Shown piece after piece: positions 877-58,370 of a stretch of 64,000 nt of DNA. Numbering within the stretch: position 1 is the first letter of the stretch; every line of letters starts with the position of its first letter. The notes under the pieces were generated by a model. That model was given only the letters and a program-made list of their open reading frames with translations. It ran no database searches and was not told where the DNA came from. The translations under genes were made by a program, and so were the position numbers. The stretch comes from Limnohabitans planktonicus II-D5 (lineage in GTDB: Bacteria > Pseudomonadota > Gammaproteobacteria > Burkholderiales > Burkholderiaceae_C), in assembly GCF_001270065.2 (NCBI RefSeq), contig NZ_LFYT02000021.1:1-64000 (forward strand), in the 5' to 3' direction.

Positions 877-1451
877 ATGGGTTGTTCCAGAAAATGCTTT
901 TGGTTGAGGTGTTGGCAGTTTTGTCGGGCTCAACTTTGCCCACTTTCCTAGGTTCAACAGTCTTCTGGATTTGAACCAGAAGCGTCAACAATCTACTTGC
1001 TAAGGTCCAGTGGGTCCTTGGGCTTGTCAACACTTTGGCTGTGAACGGCCCAGCAAGTTGCCTTATGGGACCCGAGGCTTAGGAGCAAGGCCTACATACC
1101 AAAGGAGTCCGTTTTTTGATTCACAGTTGACCTGAGTTTAATGTCGAAAAATTAGATAAAGCATGCATTCAACGCACTTGTGACATGCGCAAAACTCGAT
1201 GCCCTGGACTTGGTTTTGTGCTGGATGACCCTGCTACACCATTTGCTGCAGCACCCGACGGGTCGCAGCACCAGCGCTGACTTGTTTGTCACACCGTCCG
1301 CATTCAGCTGGCACTGGGCTGGATATGAGAAGTGTTCGGTGAACCCGTGCGGGTACCGTAAAGAGTGGCCAGCCACTGCGATCAATGCACGCGTCATCCT
1401 CAGCGTGGGCTACACCGCCCCCATGCGGCTGGCTGCCAAAAGCAGCCTATG
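877..1451. other. Intergenic region without recognisable gene
   Basis: About 575 bases between the Tat protein and the first repeat array. Short open frames occur on both strands (for example around 1152-1524) but none resembles a family I know, none has a convincing ribosome binding site, and one runs into the repeat. It may hold decayed sequence, as the neighbouring lpdA and transposase remnants do. Confidence 0.4.
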
Positions 1452-1838
1452 GATTCGGCCCTGTGAAGTTTTCAATGCCCAAAGAACTTGTAGGTCGGTG
1501 GTCGAAGACCCCGACGCTGGTTGAACAGACACCCCTGCTTGTTTCATCCAGCAGTGCCCGAACAAGCAAACGTCGGACTCTGCGAGTGCCGACCTACGAG
1601 AGGACATGTTTCACGCATTTCAAACTTCAGCGTTCCAGATCAATGGATTCGCCCCTGTGAAGTTTTCAATGCCCAAAGAACTTGTAGGTCGGCGGTCGAA
1701 GACCCCGACGCTGGTTGAACAGACACCCCTGCTTGTTTCATGAAGCAGTGCCCGAACAAGCAAACGTCGGACTCTGCGAGTGCCGACCTACGAGAGGACA
1801 TGTTTCACGCATTTCAAACTTCAGCGTGCCAGATCAAT
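1452..1838 (+). repeat. Tandem array 1: two 194-bp REP/BIME units
   Basis: Two copies of a 194-bp unit in direct tandem; the marker GTAGGTCGG sits at 1490 and 1684, exactly 194 bases apart. Each unit begins GATTCGSCCCTGTGAAG, carries a REP (GTAG followed by a bulged GTCGG...CCGAC hairpin), then about 60 bases of linker, then a second REP in reverse orientation ending CCGACCTAC, and closes with GATCAAT. The first unit shares diagnostic variants (TGGTCGAAG, CATCCAGCAG, GCGTTCCAG) with the units at 4612 and 4806 of the large array, which implies recent exchange between arrays. Open frames of about 65 codons across it are by-products. Confidence 0.95.
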
Positions 1839-1861
1839 AAGTTGATGGTGAATCAAGGGTG

Positions 1862-2740
1862 TTAGATGGCCGCAATACAGCCTCTGAGCCATTGCAAACC
1901 TGGGTCCTTGTCAGTTTGGGTGTGCCAGTACATGGCCACTTCAAAATCAGGGATGGGGATCACCGGTTCCACCACAGACATATGGTCTGGCAATTGCATG
2001 CCTTTGATCAACCGGGCAGGTGCGTTGAAGGCCAACTGCGCCGCGCAGGCCAATTCAATGGCGCTTGCAAAACTGCGCGCCCTGCAGGCGATATGGCGTG
2101 GATGTGCGTTGAGCTGTGCGTCCACAAGGTTGGTCTCGGCTTCTTCGGTTGCCAGCACCACATGATGCAAGTTCAGATAGCGGCTGCGTGTCAGTGGCAG
2201 CGCTGACTTGGGGACAAGTGTCATGAAAGATTCGCGTAACAAAATCCGGCGCTTGGCCCAGGGGTAGTTGCCGTCAGGTGATAGCAAAGCCAGTTCCGCC
2301 ACCTGGTTTTCCAGTGAGCCCACGCCCAGATCACCACCATTGAGCAAGTGCAGTCTTACGCCCGGCGCGCTCCAGCGCAGTTGCCGCATCAGGGGGGCCA
2401 AAAGCACCGTGATTTCATAGTCGGTGCAGGCAATACGAAATGCACGTTGGCTTTTGTGTGGGTCGAAAACCCTTGGGCTACTGAGTTGGCTGATGCGCTG
2501 CAAGATCTCATCGAGATCCGGCATCAGCGCCAGTGCCCGGGTTGTCGGTACCAGTGCTCGGCCCACCGGTGTGAGCAAAGGGTCACCCAAGGCCTGCCGC
2601 AAGCGGCTCAGTGCACGGCTCATGGCCGATGGGGTCACGCCACAAGCTGCTGCTGCCGCAGCCACTTGGCTGTGTTTGAGCAGCATCTGCAGGGCAATCA
2701 GCAGGTTCAGGTCCAGACCCGTAGATTCGATTTTGCGCAT
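1862..2740 (-). CDS. LysR-family transcriptional regulator
   Basis: A 292-residue regulator. Residues about 9-65 form the LysR winged helix-turn-helix, with the recognition stretch 'ACGVTPSAMSRALSRLRQAL' and the following 'GDPLLTPVGRALVPT'. The remaining 200 residues match the periplasmic-binding-like effector domain in length and outline. It stands isolated between a two-unit repeat array and decayed genes, so no target operon is visible; LysR regulators often control a divergent neighbour, and what lies divergently here (2741-2988) holds no gene. Its target may have been lost with the deletion that left the lpdA stump. No strong Shine-Dalgarno precedes the ATG. Confidence 0.9.
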   Translation of the reverse strand: MRKIESTGLDLNLLIALQMLLKHSQVAAAAAACGVTPSAMSRALSRLRQALGDPLLTPVGRALVPTTRALALMPDLDEILQRISQLSSPRVFDPHKSQRAFRIACTDYEITVLLAPLMRQLRWSAPGVRLHLLNGGDLGVGSLENQVAELALLSPDGNYPWAKRRILLRESFMTLVPKSALPLTRSRYLNLHHVVLATEEAETNLVDAQLNAHPRHIACRARSFASAIELACAAQLAFNAPARLIKGMQLPDHMSVVEPVIPIPDFEVAMYWHTQTDKDPGLQWLRGCIAAI

Positions 2741-2988
2741 TTTAGGATTGCGTTGTGTGCATCAATAATTGTATCTATCAGAATTAAACGCACTTTGCCG
2801 AAATCATTTTTGATGCTTGTGATGAAGCCTGTTTTGTTCACCTGGATTGCTGTCTCCAGCTCAATCGTGATGACGACACCACGGCATGTGCAAATCAATT
2901 CCACCGAAGACAACCACAAGCACTTGGTTGATTTTTTGATTTTGCTTTCACCCAAAGGAAAGCTACCGAAGCGGCCTGTGGGGGCTGA

Positions 2989-3338
2989 ACCTGGACCGAA
3001 GCCAAATCGCAAGGCTTCAAGGTGAAAAAGGGCTTGTTCCCTTGGGCCGCTTCAGACGGCGCCATTGCCAACTGCCGCTACGAAGGCGTGACCCAACTGC
3101 TGTTTGACGATTCACCTGAGGTGCATACGAACGGGGGCCACGGCAAAATTCTCGGCGGCGCAATGGTGGGCACGCGGGCGACATGCTTGGCGAGATTGCA
3201 CTGGCCATCGAAATGGGCGCAGACGCCGTCGACATCGGCAAAACCATCCACCCACCCCCCACGCTGGGCGAAAGTATTGGCATGGCGATGGAAGTGGCGC
3301 ACGGGTCATGCAACGATTTGCCGCCTGCGAAGAAGTAA
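2989..3338 (+). pseudogene. lpdA: 3' remnant of dihydrolipoamide dehydrogenase gene
   Basis: Read with one frameshift, this stretch encodes the last ~115 residues of dihydrolipoyl dehydrogenase (E3 of the 2-oxo acid dehydrogenase complexes). The first part reads TEAKSQGFKVKKGLFPWAAS and continues to [10 protein letters not shown]; a loss of about four bases near 3174 then shifts frame, and the rest reads [31 protein letters not shown] and LPPAKK before TAA at 3336. The dimer-interface histidine motif region (HPHPTL in the family) reads HPPPTL here, a further defect. The N-terminal FAD and NAD domains are absent. The gene's own terminator survives downstream. Clearly non-functional. Confidence 0.85.
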
Positions 3339-3397: not shown

Positions 3398-3467
3398 GGT
3401 TGCTCGAATAAGCGCCGCAGCAATGCTGTGCATTGGTACAAAATTCATATCGACTCCATCCAAGCCC

Positions 3468-3602
3468 ATGCGCTATAACGCACGCCACTGCGAGCGCACG
3501 CTGCTGTATCAAACGTTGGCCGAGCACTACGAAACATGGCTGGTGTTTGCTTGCGCGGTCCAGTTCGACGGGCAAGTCGACCACTACAGCCCCAAGCCCT
3601 AT
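3468..3602 (+). pseudogene. IS91-family transposase, N-terminal stump
   Basis: The 45 codons from the ATG at 3468 read MRYNARHCERTLLYQTLAEH... and YETWL...FDGQ.DHYSPKPY. This matches the start of IS91-type (rolling-circle, HUH-like) transposases, whose N-terminus carries 'LLYQ..AEHYETWL' before the zinc-binding domain. The frame is cut directly after PKPY, where the 194-bp repeat array begins (GATTCGG at 3604); neither the zinc-binding nor the catalytic region is present in the window. Family assignment is from memory of the motif, so moderate confidence. Confidence 0.7.
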
Positions 3603-3603
3603 C

Positions 3604-6512
3604 GATTCGGCCCTGTGAAGTTTTCAACGCCCAAAGATCTTGTAGGTCGGCGGTCGAAGACCCCGACGCTGGTTGAACAGACACCCCTGCTTGTTTCATG
3701 ATGCAGTGCCCGAGCAAGCAAACGTCGGACTCTGCGAGTGCCGACCTGCGAGACGATATTTCTCACGCATTTCAAACTTCAGCGTGCCAGATCCATCGAT
3801 TCGGCCCTGTGAAGTTTTCAATGCCCAAAGAACTTGTAGGTCGGCGGTCGAAGACCCCGACGCTGGTTGAACAGACACCCCTGCTTGTTTCATGCAGCAG
3901 TGCCCGAACAAGCAAACGTCGGACTCTGCGAGTGCCGACCTACGAGAGGACATGTTTCACGCATTTCAAACTTCAGCGTGCCAGATCAATCGATTCGGCC
4001 CTGTGAAGTTGTCAATGCGCAAAGATGTTGCAGGTCGGCGGTCGAAGACCCCGAGGCTGGTTGAACAGACACCCATGCTTGTTTCATGAAGCATTGCCCG
4101 AGCAAGCAAACGTCGGACTCTGCGAGTGCCGACCTACGAGAGGATATGTTTCACGCATTTCAAACTTCAGCGTGCCAGATCAATGGATTCGCCCCTGTGA
4201 AGTTTTCAATGCCCAAAGATCTTGTAGGTCGGCGGTCGAAGACCCCGACGCTGGTTGAACAGACACCCCTGCTTGTTTCATGAAGCAGTGCCCGAACAAG
4301 CAGTCGTCTGACTCTGCGAGTGCCGACCTGCGAGAGGACATGTTTCACGCATTTCAAACTTCAGCGTGCCAGATCAATGGATTCGCCCCTGTGAAGTTTT
4401 CAATGCCCAACGAACTTGTAGGTCGGCGGTCGAAGACCCCGACGCTGGTTGAACAGACATCCCTGCTTGGTTCATGCAGCAGTGCCCGAACAAGCATACG
4501 TCGGACTCTGCGAGTGCCGACCTGCGAGAGGACATGTTTCACGCATTTCAAACTTCAGCGTGCTAGATCAATGGATTCGGCCCTGTGAAGTTTTCAATGC
4601 CCAAAGAACTTGTAGGTCGGTGGTCGAAGACCCCGACGCTGGTTGAACAGACACCCCTGCTTGTTTCATCCAGCAGTGCCCGAACAAGCAAACGTCGGAC
4701 TCTGCGAGTGCCGACCTACGAGAGGACATGTTTCACGCATTTCAAACTTCAGCGTTCCAGATCAATGGATTCGCCCCTGTGAAGTTTTCAATGCCCAAAG
4801 AACTTGTAGGTCGGTGGTCGAAGACCCCGACGCTGGTTGAACAGACACCCCTGCTTGTTTCATCCAGCAGTGCCCGAACAAGCAAACGTCGGACTCTGCG
4901 AGTGCCGACCTACGAGAGGACATGTTTCACGCATTTCAAACTTCAGCGTTCCAGATCAATGGATTCGCCCCTGTGAAGTTTTCAATGCCCAAAGAACTTG
5001 TAGGTCGGCGGTCGAAGACCCCGACGCTGGTTGAACAGACACCCCTGCTTGTTTCATGCAGCAGTGCCCGAACAAGCAAACGTCGGACTCTTCGAGTGCC
5101 GACCTACGAGAGGACATGTTTCACGCATTTCAAACTTCAGCCTGCCAGATCCATCGATTCGGCCCTGTGAAGTTTGCAATGCCCAAAGAACTTGTAGGTC
5201 GGCGGTCGAAGACCCCGACGCTGGTTGAACAGACACCCCTGCTTGTTTCATGAAGCAGTGCCCGAACAAGCAGTCGTCTGACTCTGCGAGTGCCGACCTG
5301 CGAGAGGACATGTTTCACGCATTTCAAACTTCAGCGTGCCGGATCCATCGATTCGGCCCAGTGAAGTTTTCAATGCCCAAAGAACTTGTAGGTCGGCGGT
5401 CGAAGACCCCGACGCTGGTTGAACAGACACCCCTGCTTGTTTCATGCAGCAGTGCCCGAACAAGCAAACGTCGGACTCTTCGAGTGCCGACCTACGAGAG
5501 GACATGTTTCACGCATTTCAAACTTCAGCCTGCCAGATCCATCGATTCGGCCCTGTGAAGTTTGCAATGCCCAAAGATCTTGTAGGTCGGCGGTCGAAGA
5601 CCCCGACGCTGGTTGAACAGACACCCCTGCTTGTTTCATGAGGCAGTGCCCGAACAAGCAAACGTCGGACTCTGCGTGTGCCGACCTACGAGAGGACATG
5701 TTTCACGCATTTCAAACTTCAGCGTGCCAGATTAATGGATTCGCCCCTGTGAAGTTTTCAACGCCCAAAGAACTTGTAGGTCGGCGGTCGAAGACCCCGA
5801 CGCTGGTTGAACAGACACCCCTGCTTGTTTCATGAGGCAGTGCCCGAACAAGCAAACGTCGGACTCTGCGTGTGCCGACCTACGAGAGGACATGTTTCAC
5901 GCATTTCAAACTTCAGCGTGCCAGATTAATGGATTCGCCCCTGTGAAGTTTTCAACGCCCAAAGAACTTGTAGGTCGGCGGTCGAAGACCCCGACGCTGG
6001 TTGAACAGACATCCCTGCTTGTTTCATGCAGCAGTGCCCGAACAAGCAAACGACGGACTCTGCGAGTGCCGACCTGCGAGAGGACATGTTTCACGCATTT
6101 CAAACTTCAGCGTGCCGGATCAATCGATTCGGCCCTGTGAAGTTTGCAATGCCCAAAGATCTTGTAGGTCGGCGGTCGAAGACCCCGACGCTGGTTGAAC
6201 AGACACCCCTGCTTGTTTCATGAGGCAGTGCCCGAACAAGCAAACGTCGGACTCTGCGAGTGCTGACCTGCGAGAGGACATGTTTCACGCATTTCAAACT
6301 TCAGCGTGCCAGATCAATGGATTCGCCCCTGTGAAGTTTTCAACGCCCAAAGAACTTGTAGGTCGGCGGTCGAAGACCCCGACGCTGGTTGAACAGACAT
6401 CCCTGCTTGTTTCATGCAGCAGTGCCCGAGCAAGCAAACGTCGGACTCTGCGAGTGCCGACCTGCGAGAGGACATGTTTCACGCATTTCAAACTTCAGCG
6501 TGCCGGATCAAT
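3604..6512 (+). repeat. Tandem array 2: fifteen 194-bp REP/BIME units
   Basis: Fifteen direct copies with no insertion or deletion: the marker GTAGGTCGG (CAGGTCGG in the third) occurs at 3642 and every 194 bases to 6358. Each unit holds REP hairpin 1 (GTAG, then GTCGG-bulge-GGTC-GAA-GACC-CCGAC) and hairpin 2, its mirror image (GTCGG-ACTC-TGC-GAGT-bulge-CCGAC, then CTAC). The outer ends are imperfect inverted repeats (GATTCGG..CTGTGAAGTTTTCAATGC against GCATTTCAAACTTCAGCGTGCC.GATC). Variants are patchy: 5000/5194 and 5388/5582 form near-identical dimers, 5582 and 5776 near-identical neighbours, so growth by unequal crossing-over is likely. No spacer or gene lies between units. Confidence 0.97.
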
Positions 6513-6514
6513 AC

Positions 6515-6666
6515 AAAACGCAGTTGACCGCATTGACTCCGCTACGCACCCGATGGCACAGCCCTGGGCGGCACTGGCCGTCTTTGCAGGGGTGCAGCCT
6601 GCGGCCTCCTCGCGCCTGGCCATTGCCCCCAAGGACAGCACCCTCGGGCGCGTTCAACTGCGTTTT
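6515..6666. repeat. 152-bp segment bounded by 13-bp inverted repeats
   Basis: AAAACGCAGTTGA at 6515-6527 is exactly the reverse complement of TCAACTGCGTTTT at 6654-6666. The interior (about 126 bases) has no recognised gene. It starts three bases after the large array. It may be a small mobile element or a chance pairing; no target duplication was seen. Confidence 0.35.
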
Positions 6667-6672
6667 CTAGGT

Positions 6673-7368
6673 TTAAGAGAAAACGTCCCACAGCCCCCAT
6701 TCGTTGGGCAACGGCGACACCAAACGCAGCAGCTGCCCGCTGACCGGGTGGAGCAGTTCCAGGCTTTGTGCATGCAACCACAGGCGCTGCAGCCCGATCA
6801 AATCTGCCACGGCCCTGTTGAGTGGACCTTTGCCGTGTGTGGCGTCACCAATGATGGGGTGAGCGATGTGTTTCATGTGGCGGCGCAACTGGTGGCGGCG
6901 GCCGGTCAAGGGCTGCAGTTGCACCTCGGCCCAGCGCAGGCTTGGAAATTCACCTTGCGCAATGGGCAGCTCACCCCGTTTCAAGGTGGCATAGCGTGTC
7001 TGGGCGGGCTGGATTTCTTCGCGTTCGCTGCGCATATCGTCCGGCATGCGCTTCAAGGGGTGGTCGATCAAACCCTCTGGCAAGGGCCAACCCCGCACGA
7101 TGGCCCGGTAAGTCTTGTGCAGACCCTCGCCCTTTTCAAAGGCCTGCCCCAGCGTGCGGGCTACCTCGGCGCTCAGCGCAAACACCAGCACGCCGCTGGT
7201 GCCTTTGTCCAGGCGGTGCACCGGCCATACATGTTGCCCGATCTGGTCGCGCAGGGTTTGCAGCACAAAGCGGGTTTCGCCCTTGTCCAGCGGGGTGCGA
7301 TGCACCAGCCAGCCCGTGGGCTTGTTCACGATGGCGAGATAATCGTCCAGGTAAAGGATGTCGAGCAT
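6673..7368 (-). CDS. truC: tRNA pseudouridine(65) synthase TruC
   Basis: A 231-residue RluA-type pseudouridine synthase. The catalytic aspartate sits in [15 protein letters not shown], and the family motifs [10 protein letters not shown] and [20 protein letters not shown] are intact. The close match of the start ([20 protein letters not shown]) to E. coli TruC points to modification of U65 in tRNAs. The true start is therefore the ATG at 7368; a longer TTG start at 7392 is possible. The start codon overlaps that of the divergent yaaA by two bases in a CATG, so each gene's leader lies inside the other's first codons. No good Shine-Dalgarno is visible for 7368. Confidence 0.9.
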
Positions 7369-8143
7369 GTTGTTCTTATTGTCACCCGCCAAATCTCTGG
7401 ACTACGAAACCCCCGCAGCGGGCGTGCCCCACACGCTGCCGCAGTTCGTGCCGCAATCGCAGGCCCTCATTGAGGTGCTGCGCCAAATGTCGCCCCAGCA
7501 AATCGCCGAGTTGATGGACTTGTCAGACGCGCTGTCGGCCCTGAATGTGGCCCGCTACGAAGCCTGGACGCCTAAGTTCACCGCCAAGAACGCCAAACAA
7601 GCCGTGCTGGCCTTCAATGGCGACGTTTACGAGGGCCTGGACGCCAAAACCCTGTCCGCGCAAGACCTGGACTGGGCGCAAACCCATGTGGGCATTTTGA
7701 GTGGCTTGTATGGCGTGTTGCGCCCGCTGGACTGGATGCAGCCCTACCGCCTGGAAATGGGCACCACGCTGCAAACCGACAAGGGCAGCAACCTGTATAA
7801 ATTTTGGGGGCCGCAAATTGCTGAGTACCTGAACGCCCAGCTGGCCAAAGACAAAACCCCCGTCATCGTCAACCTGGCCTCGCAAGAGTATTTCAAGTCG
7901 GTGGACCGCAAAACCCTCAAGGCCCGCGTCATCGAATGCGTGTTCGAAGACTTCAAGGGCGGCAAATACAAAATCATCAGCTTCAACGCCAAGCGGGCGC
8001 GGGGCTTGATGGCACGGTTCGCCATCCAAAACAAAGTCACCCACCCCGAAGGTCTGCTGGGTTTTGACCTGGAAGGCTATGCCTACGACCCGCAAGTGTC
8101 CGAGCCTGACCGTTTGGTGTTCCGTCGCAAGGTGCAGGCATGA
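7367..8143 (+). CDS. yaaA: Peroxide stress protein YaaA (UPF0246)
   Basis: A 258-residue member of the YaaA/DUF328 family, a DNA-binding cytoplasmic protein that in E. coli lowers free iron during hydrogen peroxide stress. The N-terminus [14 protein letters not shown] is the family hallmark and fixes the start at 7367, with AAAGGA 8 bases upstream; ATG 7358 would add three residues. Later motifs include [34 protein letters not shown] and [13 protein letters not shown]. It overlaps queF by four bases (ATGA), so the two are translationally coupled. Confidence 0.93.
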
Positions 8144-14956: not shown

Positions 14957-15389
14957 CCTTTTCTCGATCCACGATTGTGGATAGCCCTTTGCCTATTGAT
15001 CCGGCACGCTGAAGTTTGAAATGCGTGAGACATGTCATCTCGTAGGTCGGCACTCGCAGAGTCCGACGTTATTGGTTTCGGCACAGGCCCATGTCGGGGT
15101 CTTCGACCACCGACCTACAACAGTTTTGAGCATTGAAAACTTCAGCGTGCCGAATCCATCGTTCTGACTTGCTCGGAGTGTGGGATTCGCCTGTTTGCAG
15201 GCCCATTTCGGGCCGCACAGCCGCCTTGTTGGGGCCTGCCTGAATGTCATGAGATACCGCGCCGTTCCAAATTACAGAATAATTGAGTTCTTTGGAATTC
15301 ATTCATTCAAAAAAATCAGTGCAGCAATGATCAGGCTTCAACGGCCGATGGTCATACGCAAGCTGCCAGGCTCAATCGGGAGAGACGGA
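14957..15389. other. Intergenic region holding one inverted repeat element
   Basis: 433 bases between abiEii and the Bug-type gene. It holds one complete REP/BIME element (14995-15156) and otherwise only leader sequence of the downstream gene; no other gene is recognised. Confidence 0.6.
14995..15156 (-). repeat. Solitary TIR-bounded BIME element (162 bp)
   Basis: A single copy of the array unit in reverse orientation with a shorter centre. It starts ATTGATCCGGCACGCTGAAG and ends CTTCAGCGTGCCGAATC, giving nearly perfect terminal inverted repeats of about 27 bases. Inside are the two REPs: GTAGGTCGGCACTCGCAGAG... and ...GGTCTTCGACCACCGACCTAC. The linker between them (about 25 bases) differs from that of the arrays. 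No target-site duplication was found. Confidence 0.9.
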
Positions 15390-23416: not shown

Positions 23417-25170
<1,754 letters not shown>

Positions 25171-54190: not shown

Positions 54191-54294
54191 GTAGGTCGGT
54201 ACGCCAAGAGTCCGACGCGGAACGCGCATCGTCAACGCTCACCATGCGGCAGGGGCTGGCAAGCAAACGTCGGGGTCATCGACCACCGACCTAC
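54191..54294. repeat. REP pair (BIME), first family
   Basis: GTAGGTCGG at 54191 and CCGACCTAC at 54286-54294, with a hairpin at each end (the first imperfect: GTCGGTACGCCAAGAGTCCGAC) and about 55 bases between. The terminal inverted repeats of the array units are not present. Confidence 0.85.
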
Positions 54295-54308
54295 GAGGTG
54301 GTGGTCTA

Positions 54309-54386
54309 GTAGGTCGGTACTCGAAGAGTCCGACGTTGTGGGCTTCGGCACATCCCCCACGTCGGGGTCTTCGACCACCGACCTAC
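54309..54386. repeat. REP pair (BIME), first family
   Basis: A second pair 15 bases after the first: GTAGGTCGGTACTCGAAGAG at 54309 and GGTCTTCGACCACCGACCTAC ending 54386, with a 25-base linker. The two pairs fill most of the intergenic region before the catabolic operon, whose promoter starts 30 bases later. Confidence 0.9.
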
Positions 54387-54416
54387 AGATACATCCTCGT
54401 AAGGGTTAACACCTGA

Positions 54417-57756: not shown

Positions 57757-58370
57757 ACAACATGACTGACATGGAAGTGCGCGCGCACGCCGATCACCAC
57801 GCCTCGCTGCGCCTGTGGCTGCGACTGTTGTCGTGCACCACCCGCATCGAAGACACGATCCGACAACGCCTGCGCGAACAGTTTGACATCACGCTGCCGC
57901 GCTTTGACCTGATGGCGCAACTCGAGCGTGAGCCGCAAGGCCTGTCGATGAGCGAGCTCTCGCGCCGCATGATGGTCACGGGTGGCAACGTCACCAGCAT
58001 CGTGGACCAGCTGGAAAAAGAACAACTGGTGCAGCGGCAAATGCAGGCCAGCGACCGCCGCTCCTACACCGTCAGTCTGACCGAGGCCGGGCGTACTGCT
58101 TTCGCGTCCATGGCGCAGGCCCACGAGGGGTGGGTCGTCGAGCTGCTGTCGCCGCTGGCCGAACAAGAACAAACACAACTGCATCAACTGCTGGGCGCTT
58201 TGAAGTCCGGCACCCCCACCGCAAACAACAGCGCCCTTCGTAGGTCGGTGGTCGAAGACCCCGACGTGGGTCGCGCAGGCCTTGGCGCTGAACGCGGGCC
58301 GCAGGGGGTATTCACGCCCTTGTCGGACTCTTCGAGTGCCGACCTACCCAATCCTAAGGAGACAAAATGA
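57753..58370 (+). CDS. MarR-family regulator with REP-encoded C-terminal tail
   Basis: A 205-residue protein. Residues 10-155 are a normal MarR fold: [20 protein letters not shown], the recognition region [20 protein letters not shown], and the wing [17 protein letters not shown]. The last ~40 residues (163-198) are translated from a REP pair (58240-58347) and read [11 protein letters not shown] ... [10 protein letters not shown], so the protein is about 45 residues longer than usual. The stop overlaps the next start (ATGA). It probably represses the operon promoter and responds to an aryl-CoA. Confidence 0.9.
58240..58347 (+). repeat. REP pair inside the marR 3' end
   Basis: GTAGGTCGGTGGTCGAAGAC at 58240, linker of about 60 bases, then GTCGGACTCTTCGAGTGCCGACCTAC ending at 58347. 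It is fully inside the marR reading frame. Eight bases after it comes the ribosome site of the next gene. Confidence 0.93.

Follow-up and report, generated by a model that had tools for sequence, protein, structure and literature searches.

Tandem clusters of REPs are known from several bacteria, among them the betaproteobacterium Thauera, and how REPs grow from single pairs to long arrays is an unsettled question. In P. fluorescens SBW25, the part of the published account considered here describes 16 ordered REPIN clusters, the largest of which comprises four REPINs and over 700 bp (PMC3116915). For the GTAG families, the sections covered of a second study present REP clusters as dimers in tandem reiteration together with flanking DNA, the clustering being strong in Thauera and in others (PMC3733652). 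Within the portions of the literature searched, we found no description of a complete TA-flanked shell with a REPIN inside it being repeated in tandem, and no REP work on Limnohabitans, the covered part of PMC12306157 included.

The locus described here belongs to Limnohabitans planktonicus, whose genome assembly is a draft of 4.87 Mb in 152 contigs; the whole stretch of DNA that was analysed, 64,000 nucleotides long, is called the window throughout. The YaaA protein encoded in this genome agrees with that genus, showing 95-99% identity to its counterparts in many named Limnohabitans strains. Arrays of this kind are already known, and it is the nested build and the scale of the present one that are unusual. 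We consider it probable that the array is selfish DNA, a row of nested REPIN/TA elements which has grown and been reshuffled by homologous recombination.

Architecture of the array and of its composite unit

Tandem Repeats Finder reported positions 3604-6512 as 15.0 copies of a 194-bp period, with 95% matches and 0% indels. The array, its first unit and the neighbouring features of the window that are discussed below map as follows.

1450 to 1837, plus strand: sister array, two units of the same 194-bp composite, with TA at 1448-1449 and 1838-1839
3462 to 3599, plus strand: IS91-type transposase gene, N-terminal fragment, cut by the array (Pfam Zn_Tnp_IS91 identified in a relative's homologue)
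3600 to 3601, no strand: TA at the left array edge, the target dinucleotide within the IS91-type transposase fragment; homologues in two relatives continue through this TA
3602 to 6511, plus strand: the array itself, 15 composite units in tandem, each 194 bp long (2,910 bp, exactly 15 x 194)
3602 to 3641, plus strand: left terminal inverted repeat (shell) of unit 1, recurring every 194 bp
3642 to 3667, plus strand: REP type A of unit 1 (GTAG tail, TCGAAGA in the loop), recurring every 194 bp
3668 to 3723, no strand: inner REPIN spacer of unit 1
3724 to 3749, minus strand: REP type B of unit 1, inverted (GTAG tail, ACTC..GAGT loop), recurring every 194 bp
3750 to 3795, plus strand: right terminal inverted repeat (shell) of unit 1, recurring every 194 bp
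6512 to 6513, no strand: TA at the right array edge
6673 to 7392, minus strand: pseudouridine synthase gene, whose 3' neighbour in most relatives is a flavin oxidoreductase gene, found here on another contig beside another copy of the array
14994 to 15160, minus strand: dispersed single copy of the composite, 167 bp, one end of which has TC in place of TA

Each unit carries two GTAG-tailed REPs in inverted order, one of type A and one of type B, which together form a REPIN; in unit 14 the type B REP has mutated past the mapping limit. The REPs follow the pattern GTAGGTCGG-(loop)-CCGAC, and the starts of the two members of an inverted pair lie about 70-100 bp apart. Short GTAG-tailed palindromes, arranged in inverted pairs and dispersed in high copy number, are what characterises GTAG REPs and REPINs. 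The REPIN is enclosed by imperfect inverted repeats of 40 and 46 bp, the shell, with inverted ends TATTGATYCGGCMC...; in the consensus of single copies the shell starts TATTGATTCGGCCC and reads TATTGATCCGGCAC inward from the other end. Its short terminal inverted repeats and many copies are those of a MITE. A single composite copy folds into one long hairpin (z = -7.87, 0 of 200 shuffles equally good), and hairpin folding was likewise found for the length of one array unit (z = -4.86, again with 0 of 200 shuffles equally good).

The 15 units differ from one another by 1-18 substitutions, and by no indel. The longest exact repeats at unit spacing measure 239 bp (5579 = 5773), 234 bp (4581 = 4775) and 217 bp (4973 = 5361), while independent shuffling of the variants within columns gave longest runs of 111 bp on average and of at most 193 bp in 500 shuffles. 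When whole units were reordered instead, 50 of 500 orders reached 239 bp, so that the order of the units is not itself significant. The sister array at 1450-1837 adds to this picture, its first unit being identical to unit 6 of the 15-unit array.

These data bear out the original prediction of 15 REP-bearing copies at a constant 194 bp, with variants shared block-wise between them, and are compatible with the unequal crossing-over or conversion to which it had attributed a sharing that does exceed chance. Of the pairs that it had named, 5582 = 5776 and 4612 = 4806 were found as stated; for 5000/5194 = 5388/5582 the first member held, but position 5194 falls just outside the shared block. The sister array, the shell around the REPs, the REP arrays elsewhere in the genome and the separation of the flanking genes were not part of that prediction.

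TA target use and spread of the element

The left edge of the array interrupts the IS91-type transposase gene at a TA. Specifically, the window has AAGCCC-TA-TCGATTCGG, as against AAGCCA-TA-TGTG and AAGCCC-TA-CGTC in the homologues of two relatives. A search for empty sites, covering 5 of 22 prepared elements and 57 genomes, gave matches across the join for three of the five elements, among the matches listed. One is a clean orthologous case, a relative (L186) showing the empty site of element C2:1839 with a single TA; in the second, the relatives carry TC or TT where TA is expected, and the third is ambiguous. In addition, a paralogous case is offered by element C1:183875, which occupies the TA of GGAGC-TA-GCCC within a repeat of another family, where TA stands at the site in 9 of 18 uninterrupted alignments and CA, TG, AA or TC in the other nine. 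Taken from a few clean cases, these alignments support the view that the composite inserts at a TA and duplicates it.

The family that received the composite at C1:183875 is the repeat GTGGGAGC..GCTCCCAC. The shell start TATTGATCCGGCCC is also found around this different repeat, in L165 at 2915-3089 and in L168, L174, L025 and L128 (contigs C2, C3 and C4). Another small repeat, bounded by the inverted sequences AAAACGCAGTTGACCGC ... GCGTTCAACTGCGTTTT, occupies window positions 6512-6671 and abuts the right edge of the array; other copies of it lie at C1:232854-232997 and C3:174545-174697 and in two relatives, G041 and G035.

No autonomous partner of the composite came to light. The genome gave no match to DDE_3, the domain of IS630-type transposases; the enzyme that TA insertion would call for is thus missing or of another type. 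Two pairs among the listed shell-end pairs wider than 500 bp were read for such a partner and rejected: C2:162914-164266 (1,353 bp) contains individual small elements together with an ordinary gene, and C3:250398-251000 (603 bp) is a REP array inside a shell. Because a partner was not found, we call the element MITE-like and do not file it in IS630.

Single dispersed copies of the composite, of about 165 bp, occur in the L. planktonicus genome and in some relatives. Across the genus, a match that was at least partial was obtained in 27 of 90 genomes; nine of the 90, the L. planktonicus genome included, have the composite at full length with at least 85% identity; the plasmid collection yielded no match at E 1e-5. 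Shell ends number 431 genome-wide when up to three mismatches are allowed (reversed-pattern control, 0), a figure that includes ends of the GTGGGAGC..GCTCCCAC elements, which share the shell start.

The REPs themselves are far more numerous, with 2,224 exact matches to GTAGGTCGG-N8-13-CCGAC in the genome and none to the reversed control. The same pattern was present in 34 of 57 genomes and absent from 23, the next richest having 961 matches, followed by 274, 238 and 221. Further REP pairs of this family stand outside arrays in the window, at 54191-54403 and 58240-58365.

A survey of 663,401 bases (14% of the genome), consisting of stretches chosen for having hits, revealed 60 tandem REP arrays with periods of 85-370 bp, that is, 58 in addition to the two in the window; the arrays that end contigs C27 and C2 are counted here as two and may be one. 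The automatic labels assigned shell ends inside the unit to seven arrays, a shell end at the edge to 16 and neither to 37. One of the seven, on C19, proved on inspection to consist of two shells, each holding a REPIN array. Tandem multiplication thus takes place at two levels, affecting the whole composite in a few arrays and the REPIN core alone in most. Some arrays are higher-order repeats, with an extra long period of two to four units (C7:16643-17707, C32:1-1373, C19:41955-42731 and others).

The 15-unit array of the window is the longest of the 60. The unusual size claimed for it by the original prediction is fair when set against P. fluorescens SBW25, but less so within its own genome, where 10 of the 60 arrays have at least eight copies.

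Mixing of units and separation of the flanking genes

Within the 15-unit array the internal joins lack the TA, GATCAA, GATCCA or GATTAA being followed directly by TCGATTC or TGGATTC, and TA is retained at the tandem joins on C11 and C9. Since all internal joins of the array share this absence, they point to one founding join; such a join followed by amplification explains them, as would the loss of two bases by slippage.

The units of the two arrays of the window were compared with those of the arrays in which contigs C27 and C2 end, and they intermix in a tree. Of 23 nearest neighbours, 7.0 lay within the unit's own array; the mean after shuffling was 10.2, and 933 of 1000 shuffles were as high as the observed value. 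The units thus fail to cluster by array. Growth of each array on its own was rejected as the full explanation, and exchange between arrays, or the movement of blocks, is likely to have contributed, judging from this unit tree.

The flanks of the array also differ from the arrangement in relatives. The pseudouridine synthase gene on its right was sought in 85 records of relatives, of which 49 were positive, or 44 after removal of five duplicates. A flavin oxidoreductase gene lies near it in 39 of the 44 records, at 105-457 bp in 38 and at 1.8 kb in one; of the five records without that gene, one has just 192 bases on the side concerned. Presence of an identical array in all relatives had been named beforehand as a result that would tell against the original prediction, and we found the opposite: in none of the 44 distinct records does a shell end or such an array occur within 2 kb on the oxidoreductase side of the pseudouridine synthase gene. 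Lone REPs, one to three of them, are present in that 2 kb in three of the 44. Five relatives mapped in full at the locus have no array there, one of them showing a 74-bp tandem repeat that is free of REPs.

In L. planktonicus, the DNA on the oxidoreductase side continues, beyond a transposase gene, into the same 194-bp array, with which contig C27 ends. A corresponding situation is seen on the left, where the left half of an IS91-type gene precedes the window's array and a right half comes after the array in which contig C2 ends, with the same starting TA as judged by eye. Swapping the two array exits would restore both ancestral gene orders. Genes that adjoin each other in relatives are parted exactly at the array, and the cause is either that two arrays genuinely recombined or that the assembly is wrong here.

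For the second of these, we see close to an even chance that the 15-unit row is an assembler chimera, whose left part comes from an array in the IS91-type gene and whose right part comes from an array between the oxidoreductase and pseudouridine synthase genes, both arrays being real. The 152-contig state of the draft is in keeping with it, and crossing of the assembler between arrays is plausible because eight of the 60 run into a contig end; also in its favour are the gene order of the 39 records and the restoration of both ancestral orders by a swap between the C27 and C2 ends. However, a real exchange between two arrays gives an identical picture. Furthermore, the exact overlaps of the C27 and C2 ends with the window amount to just 96 and 59 bp, with no simple shared node at the ends, and the exact repeats inside the row, of at most 239 bp, are within the reach of longer short-reads, although those between arrays extend to 258 and 284 bp.

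The other explanation, that homologous recombination between two dispersed arrays really exchanged their flanks, by an inversion or a similar event, and that the array is a live rearrangement point, is quite possible, at somewhat below even chances. It accounts for the same gene-order and contig-end facts, and it agrees with the observation that the C2 and C27 units are closest to particular C21 units, with no grouping by array; the draft state of the assembly weighs against it. If the swap is real, it is an example of REP arrays rearranging a bacterial chromosome; should it prove a misassembly, the number of copies that a draft genome shows for a REP array is not to be trusted.

The exact copy number of 15 and the continuity of the row rest on the draft assembly and are not yet secure. 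Arrays as such are another matter: in a relative with seven contigs, arrays roughly 10 to 13 units long lie in the interior of long contigs, which argues against their being assembly artefacts.

A further interruption is seen in the window at 1360-3338. Here DNA that runs unbroken in five relatives is parted by an extra 1.5 kb, in which the two-unit array and the gene of a LysR-type regulator lie. The parted DNA belongs to a gene that resembles one for dihydrolipoamide dehydrogenase.

Growth, function and relation to known systems

Returning to the selfish nested array favoured at the outset, its outer layer is a MITE-like shell that inserts at TA and duplicates it, and its inner layer a REPIN of the kind handled by RAYT enzymes. 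We infer the course of events, and the enzymes at work in it, as follows. The composite would have entered at a TA, and a head-to-tail copy would have arisen next. The repeat could then have grown and been reshuffled by RecA-type homologous recombination or by replication slippage, with the hairpins helping and with dispersed arrays exchanging units.

A different engine of growth would be RAYT itself, driving tandem expansion by single-strand cleavage and strand transfer, or by rolling replication at the REPs, and leaving only the reshuffling to homologous recombination. The genome has four RAYT-family genes, all of which score above the NCBIfam NF047646 cut-off, though in one case only just (80.7 vs 80). 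One, at C16:72318-72827, is flanked on both sides by arrays of the same REPs, and a second, at C1:302721, has REPs nearby; beside the remaining two, no REPs were present in the DNA examined. The arrays around the RAYT gene on C16 (71500-75800, L180) have periods of 158, 185 and 122 bp.

Among the 57 genomes, 10 have a close RAYT homologue (at least 54% identity) and hold more REPs (Mann-Whitney p = 3.7e-6, uncorrected for kinship), and the two most REP-rich genomes, with 2,224 and 961 matches, share the closest RAYT, at 83% identity. Moreover, the E. coli enzyme TnpA-REP can both cut single-stranded REP and rejoin it in vitro, according to the part covered of PMC8266576. Growth driven by RAYT nevertheless appears unlikely to us, since the amplified unit includes the shell and the association across genomes is imperfect, G037 (238 REPs) and G090 (111) being rich without a close RAYT and G074 (11) and G038 (16) being poor with one.

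As to function, the array is most likely selfish DNA that would have no dedicated host role. A platform used by the host for gyrase or nucleoid proteins, as in E. coli BIME-2, is highly improbable. It can appeal to the same alternating build of inverted REPs and to the enrichment of gyrase cleavage sites reported for a subset of E. coli BIME-2 in the part covered of PMC6379681. Yet the IHF platform suggested in the original prediction found no support in a consensus scan, both matches in the window (2.25 expected by chance over its whole length) falling outside the array. In addition, the array lies within a broken transposase gene, has no counterpart at this locus in relatives and is accompanied by 59 sister arrays in the 14% of the genome surveyed, all of which selfish DNA fits better than a placed platform.

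Coding and RNA explanations were dismissed, as the ORFs that cross the array in several frames merely recur with the unit, and the Rfam matches in the window at gathering thresholds, two tRNAs and anti-hemB, all lie outside it. The anti-hemB match (Burkholderia RNA 7) is at window positions 24597-24684.

More tentatively, and with the balance of probability against it, the selfish array could be part of a two-tier bacterial satellite, in which the TA-inserting shell and the RAYT-handled REPIN core are amplified independently, many arrays showing their own period (85 to 370 bp), units are exchanged and the arrays act as chromosome-rearranging recombination points. If true, this would parallel the transposon-derived satellites of eukaryotes. 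The genome offers tens of arrays with varied periods, single composites, array-free relatives and intact RAYT genes; with such material, insertion, first duplication, expansion and exchange can be ordered and tested.

Compared with known systems, each as far as the covered part of its source describes it, the array resembles the SBW25 clusters in having near-identical REPINs head to tail with flanking sequence, and in that the clusters adjoin RAYT genes; it differs in scale, with 15 REPINs in 2.9 kb and a TA-inserting shell in Limnohabitans, against a maximum of four REPINs there (PMC3116915). With E. coli BIME-2 it shares two inverted REP types which alternate, often in tandem, whereas gyrase cleavage is reported for BIME-2 and the covered parts make no mention of a TA-flanked shell (PMC6379681, PMC8266576). 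GTAG-1 of Thauera sp. MZ1T likewise has REPs with 5-bp stems, mostly clustered and first spotted in a tandem repeat database, but an inverted-repeat shell goes unmentioned in the covered part (PMC3733652). BrickBuilt of Porphyromonas gingivalis is a minisatellite inside the inverted ends of a MITE, comparable to the arrays here that have the shell at their edge; its repeat is 23 bp long and is not a REPIN, while the window's array repeats the whole element, ends included (PMC4596501). Finally, GTAG-15 of Anabaena variabilis has a REP dimer nested in a longer palindrome with TATA...TATA ends, as in the composite described here, although its sequence and phylum are different and the covered part does not mention tandem arrays of the whole composite (PMC3733652).
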